Below are positions 15,316 to 28,158 of a stretch of 43,970 nucleotides of DNA, piece by piece. Both the position numbers and the translations under genes were made by a program. Below the pieces are notes generated by a model. That model did no database searches. It worked only from the letters and a program-made list of their open reading frames with translations, and was not told the DNA's origin. This DNA is from a virus. The stretch lies in the IMG/VR virus record IMGVR_UViG_3300017726_000013, positions 1-43,970 of that record. One strand, written 5' to 3'. The stretch's first letter is position 1. The number at the start of each line of letters is the position of its first letter.

Positions 15316-16746
15316 TCACATGAGGTTCTTAACCGCAACTCTTCTGTAGTAACGGTTCTGGTTAACGTTGAGTGAACCCATGCCTTGGTCGGTTCCTTGA
15401 GCGAAGGGGTTGGAAACAAGACCATAACGGGTCTTGAAGCCAATTTTCGGCTGGAAGGAGTTCTCACCAACGGCACGAACCATCTGCAGAGGAACGTAAG
15501 GGCAGTAGAACAGACCTGCGTCATAGGGGGAAGAACCCTTATAACCACAGACGTAATACTGGTTGCCGTTTGCAGTGTTGTTAGCACTGAGGTTTGCAGA
15601 ATAAGGATCGATGTATACACGATACTTACCTTGCAGAACACCAGCGAAGGTGTTACCCGTGTCATCAACGGTAAGATTAGCGTTGAGTGCAGGGGTGTAG
15701 TCAAGCACACCAGCCATGGTCAGTGCAGAAGCAACGTCTGCAGAGCACATGATAATGTTGCCCTTTCCGCGACGAGTTCTTTGTGCGATTGCGTTTGCAT
15801 CACGCTCGATTTGGAACAGGAGACCCTTGAACTTCTCAACAGACCAACGTCCGTTGGAGTCAATGTCAAGGTCAAATACACCAGCGGTAGCGGTGTTTTG
15901 TACAGCACCTTGCTCAGCAACCTTATAGATGGTTCTGATGACTTCTCTGTTGATCTCAGCGAGGATCTCAGTGGAGAGAATGTTAGCAAGTTCTGCTTCT
16001 GCATTCAGACCGTGAATTGCCTTCAGGTCTTGTGCGAGTTCTAAGCTGTACTCTGCTTTCAGTGCTCTGGACTTAGCAGTAACAGTGACCTTCTCGATGG
16101 AGAAGTTCATCTGACCGAAAGCACCGTCAGGACCAGCACCATCTAATCCTTCAGCCACGTCGGTACGCATACCCTGACCAACGTCATAGGAGGTAGAAGT
16201 ACCAGTGGAGACGGGGTTCAGAACTGCAGGGTTAGTGCCGGACTGAGTGGTAGTACCCATACCTGAGTTAACTGCCGTAGCGCCGTCGAGCTCGTTTCTA
16301 AATGCGTCCTGACCGGAGAATGCCGAATCGGGCTCATTGTAGAATGCCTCATCGCCAGTAGTACGGTTAGTACCATAGCGGGAGCGCATTGCGAAGATCA
16401 GTCCAGTAGGACCGTTCATTGGTTGTACGCCAGCCAGGTCATATGCGACCAGGTTAGGCATGGAGCGTCTGATCAAGGAGATCAGAACGGGGTCGAAACC
16501 TGCAACAGGACCGGTAGCGGTTGCATTAGCAGAGAAACCTGCATTAGAACCAGAACCAGTGTTCATGGTTGGGGTTTCAGACAGCATTCCTCCGTGCTCG
16601 AATGAGGATTGCTCTCTTAAAAATCTTTCTTGGTTTTCAAGCAGGACAGCAGTAACAGCTCTACGATGGGGATCTTTGATCTGATCGCAACCCTCATGAT
16701 TGAGGAGAGGTGCCCACTTTTCCTGCAACTGTTCGGATTGGAACAT
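15316..16746 (-). CDS. 23: gp23 major capsid protein
   Basis: HK97-fold capsid subunit, 476 residues (T4 521). The N-terminal segment LQEKWAPLLNHEGCDQIKD matches the T4 precursor (LLNKWKPLLEGEG), and PNLVAYDLAGVQPMNGPTGL matches PNLIAFDICGVQPMNSPTGQ. A probable gp21 processing site MLSE-TPT lies at Glu57/Thr58, in the same place as FLTE-AEI of T4, so about 57 residues would be removed. The rest is beta-rich with the typical C-terminal VVTRYG-type segment (FKTRYGLVSNPFA). A 50-base gap separates it from gp22, with AAAGGT as ribosome-binding site and no late promoter consensus in the gap. It probably depends on read-through from upstream. The UUCG terminator follows. Confidence 0.97.
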   Translation of the reverse strand: MFQSEQLQEKWAPLLNHEGCDQIKDPHRRAVTAVLLENQERFLREQSSFEHGGMLSETPTMNTGSGSNAGFSANATATGPVAGFDPVLISLIRRSMPNLVAYDLAGVQPMNGPTGLIFAMRSRYGTNRTTGDEAFYNEPDSAFSGQDAFRNELDGATAVNSGMGTTTQSGTNPAVLNPVSTGTSTSYDVGQGMRTDVAEGLDGAGPDGAFGQMNFSIEKVTVTAKSRALKAEYSLELAQDLKAIHGLNAEAELANILSTEILAEINREVIRTIYKVAEQGAVQNTATAGVFDLDIDSNGRWSVEKFKGLLFQIERDANAIAQRTRRGKGNIIMCSADVASALTMAGVLDYTPALNANLTVDDTGNTFAGVLQGKYRVYIDPYSANLSANNTANGNQYYVCGYKGSSPYDAGLFYCPYVPLQMVRAVGENSFQPKIGFKTRYGLVSNPFAQGTDQGMGSLNVNQNRYYRRVAVKNLM

Positions 16747-17944: not shown

Positions 17945-18595
17945 TTAGATACTATTTAAGAAATCATTGAACAGATTCAATTTCTGCTCATCTAATTTCT
18001 TTTGATCAACTAAAGTATTGATATGCTTATAGGTCTTTTCTGCATATTTTTCACGGAGGATGCCACCATCCCAGACCCAATCTTTTCCTTCCATAATACC
18101 TTCAACAAAAGCATCAGGTGCAGAAGGATCAGCAACGATATCAGCAGCAGTTGCCAACATAAAATCATCGCCAACGATGTTTACCCCCTCACGGGTCATT
18201 TTAAGTGAACCAATACCACGAGAAGAAACGCCGAGTTTTACCCCTTCTTCTACAAGAGAAGAAGCAATCTTGCCCATGGGGGTGTTCAGAAGTTTTGCTT
18301 TACCGATAAAATTAGAACCACTCTCTTTTAAAGAGACGATTTTATGAGAAACTCTGTCAAGGTTGACGGTTGGACCATCAGGGTGACCGAGTTCGCCAAG
18401 TGCTCTACCCGCTTGAATATGGTTTTCGTTGTATCTACCGACTTCCTTACGGAGAGTCTCCATAGGATACATACGACCATTACGGTTTTTAATGTTGCCT
18501 TGAAGGAAAACTCCTTCAATATACATTGATTTCCTGCCGTTCTTCTGTTCGACAAGAAACTCTACGGATTCAATTTCTTCTCTAATTAGTTTCAT
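17945..18595 (-). CDS. 21: gp21 prohead core protease
   Basis: Serine protease that matures the T4-type prohead by cutting after (I/L)xE. Visible elements: IEGVFLQGNIKNRNGRMYP near the N-terminus, a probable catalytic His in ELGHPDGPTVNLDRVSHKI (about residues 68-86), and a probable catalytic Ser in VKLGVSSRGIGSL (about 118-130). The 216 residues match T4 gp21 (212). The gene lies between the unassigned 189-residue gene and gp22. Probable local targets are gp22, gp23, gp67 and perhaps the 144- and 580-residue proteins described below. All motifs are intact. Confidence 0.95.
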   Translation of the reverse strand: MKLIREEIESVEFLVEQKNGRKSMYIEGVFLQGNIKNRNGRMYPMETLRKEVGRYNENHIQAGRALGELGHPDGPTVNLDRVSHKIVSLKESGSNFIGKAKLLNTPMGKIASSLVEEGVKLGVSSRGIGSLKMTREGVNIVGDDFMLATAADIVADPSAPDAFVEGIMEGKDWVWDGGILREKYAEKTYKHINTLVDQKKLDEQKLNLFNDFLNSI

Positions 18596-25984: not shown

Positions 25985-27727
25985 TCAGCAGTTCCAGGCT
26001 CTTAATGATTTATTGATTCTGCTATCTGGGTCATTAGCAGTTTTAGCAGAAGTCAATTTTTTCTTCATTCCTTTCATACGCGCACAAAAGCTCTTTCTAC
26101 GAGGGTTTCCAGCTTTCTTTGAAGGTCTCTTAAGATCGCTTCCTGGATTCTGACGTTCATAACTCTTTCTTCCTTTTTCATTCAATCCACCCTCTGGGTT
26201 TTTACCGGACTTCTTTTGCCAGTCTTCAGTATGTAGGAGAGGTTCTCCTGGTTCAAAATCAGAAACTTGGAATGAGAGAAGTCTTGCACCTGGGTAGACT
26301 TTTTCAACTTGAGATTGAACGTCTGCTTTATTGGGAACAGAAGTTTGTGGGAAGAACATCTTCAGAGAGATGTAGTTACTTCTAAATCTAAAGTAAGCAT
26401 TTACAATGTTACCAGTCTTTGCTGGAACTCTCACTGCTTCTTCAATTGCTGGGCATTCTTTGTTACCATGTACCGGACACTCTTCACCTTTGTGATTGTG
26501 CATACAACCTTTCTTTTCATCAATATATTCTACCTCTTCTTTTTTGGTCTTTTTGACACAGTTTGGATATCTCTTTCCAAACATAGTCTTCATACCTTTC
26601 TTTTCATATCCCTTCCAGCACTTTTCATCGAGTTCTGTTCTCCAATCTGAGATCTCAAACTCTTCTTTCTTTGTTTTAGATTTATTACCCCAGTTGGCAG
26701 CACCAACCTTACGACACTTAACCAAAGCACCTGAGGCATATGCAGAAGGCCATACAGAATAACGAGACTTGACCTTATGGTAACAAGCATCTTTGGTCCC
26801 TGCTTTTTCCTGGATTTGTGCTGATTCTTTCATTTTCTTTGGTTTGTCAGTTGAAACGTAAGTTGGTTTTGCTGCTCCTGTTTTTTGTGGTTGACCTGGA
26901 TCAGCAGATCTCTTCCTTCTTTGAGCAGATTTTCTTTCAGATTTGCTCATGCTTGATCTCTTTGCAGATGACACACACTTAGGTGTTGACTTCTGCCCTG
27001 GTTGGCGAGCACAGGGTTTACCTGATACAACTTGAACCCAACCTTTCTTACCATCTTTTGATTTGGACTTACCAAACCAATCACGGAGACCTTCTTCACT
27101 TATACCATTACCACCGTTTCCGTTACCATTACCACCATTACCATTACCATTACCGTTTCCATTGCCGTTACCATTTTTCTTGGTATCATCAACGGAATGA
27201 CCATTCTCTTTACGAAGATAACCAGAGCGTCCAACCATTTTAAATCCTTTGGGGATTGGTTTACACTTCTTATCGGTGTAACAATAATATTGTCCCTCAG
27301 GGCAACGACCATTCTTTTTTTCTTCGTTTACATCACCAGAAGTATCCTTCTTATGAAGACTCTTATAGAGATGTTTATGAAGAGGTTTTGCTCTATTCAT
27401 AATCTTATCTTTTTCAGAATAATCTTGCGCTTCATTCATTTTTTTGGTCTTCTTCTTCATTGAGTTGATGAATTTTCTATAGACCGCTGCTTCTGAAGTC
27501 TTACCCATTTCTCTTGCTCTCTGTTCCATAGCAACTGCTGCCTGGATTTTGTGAGCATGAGATCTTGATGAATTGCGAATCTTAGAAACAGATGCTTTAG
27601 CGGTTGCAACGTCCTTGAATCCAAGTCCATGAATCGTGCCTTTTGGATTTTCATCCGTATAAAGGTCCGAGTGCTTTTTGGAGTTTGCTGGTTGACCAGA
27701 TTTTCTTGGAATACGTGGGTTACTCAT
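25985..27727 (-). CDS. Multi-module basic Cys-containing protein, possible internal head polyprotein
   Basis: 580 residues, strongly basic, made of short distinct blocks: 28-95 Ala/Lys-rich helical (TIHGLGFKDVATAKASVSKI); 141-175 Cys-containing (CPEGQYYCYTDKKCKPIPKG); 185-208 pure Asn/Gly repeat; 212-297 (WFGKSKSKDGKKGWVQVV, CARQPGQKSTPKC); 311-340 (KDACYHKVKSRYSVWPSAYA); 369-393 (KCWKGYEKKGMKTMFGKRYP); 408-426 (CMHNHKGEECPVHGNKEC), Cys/His-rich; 435-500 a globular beta part; 513-580 (RRKSFCARMKGMKKK, TANDPDSRINKSLRAWNC). Several blocks resemble small domains of unknown function (DUF5824/5872/6321-like, from memory) known separately in phages and giant viruses. (I/L)xE motifs, the gp21 cut pattern, fall at the block joints. 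Position between gp16 and gp17 suggests a DNA-packaged or head protein. Function unknown. Confidence 0.75.
   Translation of the reverse strand: MSNPRIPRKSGQPANSKKHSDLYTDENPKGTIHGLGFKDVATAKASVSKIRNSSRSHAHKIQAAVAMEQRAREMGKTSEAAVYRKFINSMKKKTKKMNEAQDYSEKDKIMNRAKPLHKHLYKSLHKKDTSGDVNEEKKNGRCPEGQYYCYTDKKCKPIPKGFKMVGRSGYLRKENGHSVDDTKKNGNGNGNGNGNGNGGNGNGNGGNGISEEGLRDWFGKSKSKDGKKGWVQVVSGKPCARQPGQKSTPKCVSSAKRSSMSKSERKSAQRRKRSADPGQPQKTGAAKPTYVSTDKPKKMKESAQIQEKAGTKDACYHKVKSRYSVWPSAYASGALVKCRKVGAANWGNKSKTKKEEFEISDWRTELDEKCWKGYEKKGMKTMFGKRYPNCVKKTKKEEVEYIDEKKGCMHNHKGEECPVHGNKECPAIEEAVRVPAKTGNIVNAYFRFRSNYISLKMFFPQTSVPNKADVQSQVEKVYPGARLLSFQVSDFEPGEPLLHTEDWQKKSGKNPEGGLNEKGRKSYERQNPGSDLKRPSKKAGNPRRKSFCARMKGMKKKLTSAKTANDPDSRINKSLRAWNC
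27104..27175 (-). repeat. Asn-Gly codon repeat tract in the 580-aa gene
   Basis: A hexamer-based tract (plus strand ACCATT and variants) coding (NG)n with a few GG steps, residues 185-208. Simple repeats of this type can change length by slippage, so the linker may vary between strains. Silent variation between copies shows it is not freshly expanded. Confidence 0.85.
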
Positions 27728-28158
27728 TTCTTTTTACGACCCGCACAGTGCGCTCTTTGGGAAAATCCCTTAGGATTAGAGCAATCAATACTCTTTTTAT
27801 ATTTATTACTCCAACCTTCTTGGAATTGACCAAAAGTTTTTCTAACCCTTTGATAGTTATTTTCGTCCATCCTATCTACAAACATCTTGGATGCTGCGAC
27901 CATACTATCAATAGATGGACCATCGCTTGATTTACTCAAAGACAACTTCATAACGGGATAGACATTGGAAAATCTCCACTTTGCCTCTCCAGATTCTGCC
28001 GGAGTTTGATAGTCCTGTGATAAGTCATCAATGTCTGCAGGAAACAATCTGGGATCTGCTCCTGCCACTGGACCAGAAACATCAGCGGCGTTTGAATATC
28101 CATCACTTCCAACACTATTTGTGGGTTGTTCTGATAAGAACTGCTTAAAAGATTTCAT
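27724..28158 (-). CDS. Putative internal head protein with capsid-targeting-like N-terminus
   Basis: 144 residues. The first ten, MKSFKQFLSE, follow the plan of the T4 capsid-targeting sequence (MKTYQEFIAE in the internal proteins): Met-Lys, aromatic, basic/acidic pair, Phe-(I/L)-x-Glu, with a predicted gp21 cut after Glu10. The LSE tripeptide also occurs at the probable processing site of this phage's gp23. The body is polar (SVGSDGYSNAADVSGPVAGA), has a helical part (IDSMVAASKMFVDRMDENNY), and ends basic with two Cys (DCSNPKGFSQRAHCAGRKKK). If the reading is right, it is packaged in the head and may be injected with DNA. It overlaps both neighbours by 4 bases. No known family is assigned. 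Confidence 0.7.
   Translation of the reverse strand: MKSFKQFLSEQPTNSVGSDGYSNAADVSGPVAGADPRLFPADIDDLSQDYQTPAESGEAKWRFSNVYPVMKLSLSKSSDGPSIDSMVAASKMFVDRMDENNYQRVRKTFGQFQEGWSNKYKKSIDCSNPKGFSQRAHCAGRKKK

Follow-up and report, generated by a model that had tools for sequence, protein, structure and literature searches.

A small cyanophage protein with a capsid-targeting-like leader and an arm resembling the N-fist of its own phage's gp23

The window analyzed here is the whole 43,970-base virus record IMGVR_UViG_3300017726_000013 (IMG/VR, positions 1 to 43,970). An open reading frame on its minus strand, at 27724–28158 with the stop codon included, encodes a 144-aa protein whose first residues are MKSFKQFLSE. 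The gene shares 4-base overlaps with a fibre-like gene upstream and a 580-aa gene downstream, and the minus-strand order is gp13, gp14, gp15, gp16, the fibre-like gene, the 144-aa gene, the 580-aa DUF6321 gene, gp17, gp18, gp19, gp20, two small genes, gp21, gp22 and gp23. A sequence-only reading had placed the gene beside the terminase; this is loose, as the 580-aa gene separates it from gp17 and, on the other side, the fibre-like gene separates it from gp16. The major capsid protein gp23 is encoded at 15316–16746 (minus strand) and the gp21 prohead protease, the expected processing enzyme, at 17945–18595 (minus strand; Pfam Peptidase_S77, 3.7e-34; phrog_207). SSM2_108 of Synechococcus phage S-SM2 is a 70% homologue of the 144-aa protein, syntenic and in the same gene arrangement, and scans of IMG/VR contigs returned about 200 relatives; 110 distinct sequences were examined for leader, cut site and arm. 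A Pfam search with the protein gave no match and a PDB profile search with its family gave no relative. The AF2 model was mostly extended and of low confidence (mean pLDDT 58, pTM 0.23), and would speak neither for nor against the docking proposed below.

Residues 1–10 (28129–28158, minus strand) match the T4 capsid-targeting sequence (CTS) at all four positions mapped there by mutation. In T4, residues 4 and 7 mainly serve targeting and residues 8 and 10 serve processing, and Asp10 blocks processing while leaving targeting intact (PMC9026906). The window leader has F4 and F7 as targeting residues, and L8 and E10 as processing residues. Across 39 distinct MKxF-class leaders, position 4 was F, L or Y, position 7 F or Y, position 8 L, I, V or M, and position 10 E or D, with positions 3, 5, 6 and 9 variable. 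E10 was present in 38 of the 39; the exception, in contig L145, has D10 and a second site, IMQE, directly before the arm described below. As a T4 control, the leaders of IPII and IPIII are both MKTYQEFIAE, which the sequence-only reading had given as the start of T4 internal proteins in general; IPI starts MKTFKEFTSTTTPVSTITE. The N-terminus of T4 gp24 is MAKINELLRE and the T4 gp23 cut site is FLTE.

The leader was far more frequent than chance would allow. When the motif M[KR].[FYLI]..F[ILMVQ].E was counted against shuffled sequence, the complete S-SM2 genome held 3 occurrences vs 0.007 expected, all at the first Met of open reading frames. The motif stood at 83 of 4450 first Met vs 8 of 9098 internal Met. 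A looser motif occurred once in the window, in the 144-aa protein. A search of cyanophages for other proteins with an MK-aromatic leader, as the earlier reading had proposed, found matches, and one of the three in S-SM2 is the cytidylyltransferase T4-GC190. Its N-termini are MKSFFQFLSE (S-SM2), MKKFSAFLNE (S-SM1), MKNFSSFLTE (S-CREM2) and MKSFLQFLKE (S-SCSM1); it was found in S-SM1 virions (PMC3037559), and its counterparts are virion proteins in S-CREM2 (PMC10665884) and S-SCSM1 (PMC9602691). Hence, the same leader is common to unrelated proteins, at least one of them packaged. The match at the four mapped positions, the excess over chance and the occurrence on T4-GC190 support the assignment of MKSFKQFLSE as a putative CTS-like propeptide with a gp21-type site. 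The MKxFxxFxxE leader was also seen on further unrelated cyanophage proteins (L051:7916-8233, L082:1930-2253, L037:6013-6489 and L283:2522-3103, the last being SSM2_065), which are candidates for packaging.

The predicted gp21 cleavage site is L8-S9-E10 (28129–28137, minus strand), with the cut after E10. FLSE of the 144-aa protein aligns exactly on T4 FLTE65|A66, where cleavage after E65 converts the 521-aa gp23 precursor into the 456-aa mature chain, and the window gp23 has M54-L55-S56-E57 at the same position. An [ILVM]xE site lay 0–2 residues from the arm in all 94 leader-bearing relatives (94/94), compared with a background of 7%. That LSE is shared with gp23 had been pointed out from the sequence alone, and this stands; the likeness is not confined to the cut site, however, as about 30 following residues are gp23-like as well. 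Residues 7–39 of the 144-aa protein align to residues 54–89 of the gp23 of the same phage with 50% identity (BLASTP, E=3e-6). Since FLSE falls on T4 FLTE65, which is cut after E65, the aligned gp23 region is the cleavage site together with the start of the mature chain, gp23*.

We refer to residues 11–39, QPTNSVGSDGYSNAADVSGPVAGADPRLF (28042–28128, minus strand), as the arm. Its counterpart is gp23 residues 55–89 (16480–16584, minus strand), identified by alignment to the 144-aa protein and to T4 and comprising the LSE site and the N-fist region at the mature N-terminus. In T4 gp23 the N-fist is residues 66–91 and contacts four subunits, a pair in its own capsomer and a pair in the adjacent one (PMC9958956, PMC7136217). 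An HMM of the gp23 arm was made from 13 other phages and used to search 4,388 six-frame open reading frames taken from the window, from S-SM2 and from part of T4. Apart from the two gp23s, the inclusion threshold was passed only by the 144-aa protein (E=6e-10) and SSM2_108 (1e-4). The 144-aa protein therefore contains both a gp21 site and gp23* N-fist sequence. An HK97-type capsid fold was not found in it: only residues 7–39 align to gp23, and there was no Pfam Gp23 or PDB match. Because some 30 residues past the cut site are gp23-like, the mature protein would be more like a protein bound to the capsid than one that diffuses freely and is injected.

A leader was present in 94 of the 110 distinct relatives, and the remaining 16 start at the arm. 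These look like a ready-made mature form, and they show that a CTS is not always needed. Unrelated kinds of leader precede the arm (MKxFxxFLxE, MDIxRVIxxIRNLKE, ...KGLKE and ...RGPLPE), and the gene occupies three places across phages, namely before gp17, between gp23 and gp3, and in the cytidylyltransferase-gp61 cluster. Cut site, arm and core domain are the constant elements, and the tails are exchangeable. Several further proteins came to light. Another small protein, in which a gp23-like arm comes directly after VSEE or VNEE, lies near gp61/nrdA (L213:6611-6922; similar in L214, L154, L148 and L232), in phages whose own QDYQT protein is without a leader. Two single proteins carry two gp23-like arms with an LKE or LREE site before each (L231:9989-10543, L207:10001-10540), as if to be cut into two armed products. 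SSM2_167 (L284:40088-40276; 62 aa, MEKRNLEKLISLIRLREE/ATAAPTNNVGGGQIAG..., phrog_3286) resembles the second half of S-SKS1-type relatives.

Residues 40–106 (27841–28041, minus strand) form the family core, QDYQTPxExGxAKWRFSNVYPVxKLSL..DGPSIDxMVxASK in the alignments, predicted at low AF2 confidence to be mostly extended and then a long helix. Residues 107–144 (27727–27840, minus strand) bear out the basic, Cys-containing tail of the sequence-only reading: the module is basic and has two Cys, and in many other cyanophages it is a separate protein of 41–56 aa starting MKTFKQFQE (L028-L082). DNA binding by this tail is possible. KTFGQFQE (window 27817–27840, residues 107–114) repeats the leader pattern where the stand-alone tail protein would begin, and a second gp21 cut there is conceivable. 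The adjacent 580-aa protein (25985–27727, minus strand; DUF6321, T4-GC119 type) combines DUF6321 and a Gly-Asn repeat with a mosaic of small Cys/basic modules; its modules are shuffled and differently fused in other cyanophages, sometimes onto the 144-aa family (L021-L025).

Arm-bearing proteins have been found in virions. S-CREM2 ORF160 starts MSSLSERKSRIFKDIKEE/MMAAGATGFTGAAAPEGPVAGYDPLM, followed by Cys modules that resemble those in the 580-aa protein of the window, and was detected in virions by seven unique peptides (PMC10665884 Table 3). This fusion of the arm to GC119-type modules, together with the adjacency of the two genes in the window, suggests a role for the arm in tethering the Cys-module protein to the capsid and makes the 580-aa protein a candidate partner. 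S-SCSM1 ORF97 is annotated as a virion protein (PMC9602691). Its annotated start (L288:6001-6219) is just past the Glu of an in-frame upstream MDKTDRVIQLIRE, and the true gene probably includes this propeptide. For T4-GC119 and GC426, we infer virion status in S-SM1, as the published S-SM1 virion list agrees with their GenBank notes ('similar to Synechococcus phage S-SM1 protein'). T4-GC426/phrog_696 proteins share the N-terminal arm with the 144-aa family, lie in the cytidylyltransferase-gp61 cluster and are flagged in GenBank notes for likeness to S-SM1 proteins, but have a different body and are mostly leaderless. RefSeq names them 'major head protein' (S-SM1_197, L292:27806-28354; Syn19_180, L293:3995-4552; S-TIM4, L294:701-1399), although only the N-terminal arm was gp23-like in the examples read. 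The name is likely a mis-annotation, and the RefSeq/PHROGs label apparently derives from the gp23-like N-terminus alone.

The arm also tracked the gp23 of its own phage. Scores of own-phage pairs of arm and gp23 arm were compared with those of shuffled partners; for 18 phages with both sequences the values were 1000 vs 738 ± 70 (p = 3e-4), and for T4-GC426/phrog_696 and relatives in 15 named phages 1210 vs 1098 ± 38 (p = 2e-4), the p-values being approximate since the phages in both tests are mutually related. Striking pairs were VGNGGYTSSGGQTVAG / VGNGGYTSAGGQTVAG in S-SM2 and PTNSGGNPQAYSGAATG / PTNSGGNPQAYSNAATG in phage G127, and in P-SSM4 QTTGYT occurs in both the gp23 arm and the T4-GC426-type arm. 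Clear mismatches were seen in five or more phages (G040, G101, G141, G047, G109). Taken over the closest pairs together with the window, agreement at synonymous codons was at the chance level, 23 observed vs 24.0 expected of 75. Recent gene conversion or DNA copying was thereby ruled out as the cause of the arm match, and since the amino acids match while synonymous codons do not exceed chance, the match is kept at the protein level.

We consider it probable that the 144-aa protein is a minor head protein, delivered by its CTS, trimmed by gp21 and bearing a gp23-mimicking anchor that docks at an N-fist site and tethers the basic Cys tail. The leader MKSFKQFLSE would act like the T4 CTS and bring the protein into the core of the prohead, and a gp21 cut after E10 would expose a new N-terminus, QPTNSVG...GPVAGADP, as with the N-fist of gp23*. 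On head expansion, the arm would fill a site in the gp23 lattice normally held by the gp23 N-fist. Vacant sites would be expected at the portal vertex, because no capsomer there faces the neighbouring hexamers. The arm would then tether the protein's helix and its basic, Cys-containing tail to the capsid wall, probably together with the neighbouring 580-aa Cys-module protein. Counting against docking, free sites would be few if gp23 itself fills every N-fist site.

Known T4 head proteins resemble parts of this arrangement. IPII and IPIII are small basic proteins with a 10-residue leader that has an aromatic residue at 4, Phe at 7, Ile/Leu at 8 and Glu at 10, but their sequence past the cut site is unrelated, where the 144-aa protein has the gp23-like arm. 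With gp23 the protein shares an (F/M)L(S/T)E cut site and, after it, an arm that is homologous along about 30 residues and ends in GPVAGxDPxL; it differs in lacking the HK97 capsid fold and in having a 10-residue CTS-like leader in place of a 57-residue propeptide. The T4 vertex protein gp24 likewise has a 10-residue propeptide, ending LRE and cut by gp21, but is a capsid-fold paralogue. Cyanomyoviruses are without gp24 (PMC2984593); a replacement of gp24 by fold was considered for the 144-aa protein and rejected, as it has no capsid-fold domain.

A less probable reading, though the best placed of the alternatives, is an ordinary T4-type internal protein that is delivered by its CTS, trimmed, left free among the DNA and injected, with a tail that binds DNA or blocks defence and an arm that is a passive spacer. 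The T4-like leader and basic tail fit this, as does the sharing of the leader with the cytidylyltransferase, a protein that the phage is proposed to carry into the host (PMC9602691). Were the arm a passive spacer, however, one would expect no gp23 match along some 30 residues, no tracking of its own phage's gp23 and no persistence in leaderless relatives. The sequence-only reading had proposed an encapsidated, possibly injected protein, perhaps with an anti-defence function. Encapsidation gains from the same leader on a known virion protein and from arm-bearing relatives in virions, whereas a free, injected form leaves the gp23-like arm unexplained; anti-defence found no backing, as the searches made gave no defence or anti-defence match for the 144-aa protein.

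It is improbable that the arm is a maturation signal, one whose binding partner before expansion would be the scaffold, gp21 or the inner surface of the prohead and whose job would be over once cleavage has occurred. In its favour, the N-terminal region of gp23 lies inside and is disordered in proheads (PMC9958956), and arm and cut site occur nearly always together; yet a propeptide that could be cut is absent from the 16 arm-starting relatives and from most of the T4-GC426 proteins seen, and T4 gp24, IPII and IPIII are cut despite quite different residues past the site. That the arm is a functionless by-product of recombination between gp23 and neighbouring genes is quite unlikely. The three genome positions of the gene are in keeping with it, and so is contig L245, which joins the gp23 N-terminus to a protein of the 144-aa family, but the arm recurs on different proteins, and in the closest pairs amino acids match with synonymous codons at chance. 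The L245 frame itself (L245:4439-5317) joins gp23 propeptide, arm and family core in one open reading frame; the order of genes on its contig, gp20-gp21-gp22-chimera-gp17, points to a chimera produced in assembly at the shared arm, and the frame was set aside as evidence. Finally, a chance likeness of the leader on a non-virion protein is scarcely credible given the excess of the motif in S-SM2 and at first Met.

CTS-tagged head proteins are already known; in the main texts of open PubMed Central papers, we found no description of a CTS or of gp23-arm/N-fist mimicry in cyanophages. More tentatively than for the docked, CTS-delivered 144-aa protein itself, the gp23 N-fist may serve as a general plug, such that several unrelated cyanophage proteins are trimmed by gp23's protease, expose a copy of their own phage's N-fist and insert it into vacant lattice sites, for instance around the portal, fixing accessory proteins to the capsid and perhaps replacing missing vertex or decoration proteins. 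If true, this would allow head-targeted and capsid-anchored proteins to be recognized by a sequence rule in T4-like cyanophages, a group with many unassigned virion proteins, and would account for databases calling non-capsid proteins "major head protein". It would also offer a mechanism for fixing accessory proteins to the T4-type head in phages without gp24, and would make it testable whether other proteins share the N-fist sites of T4-type heads.
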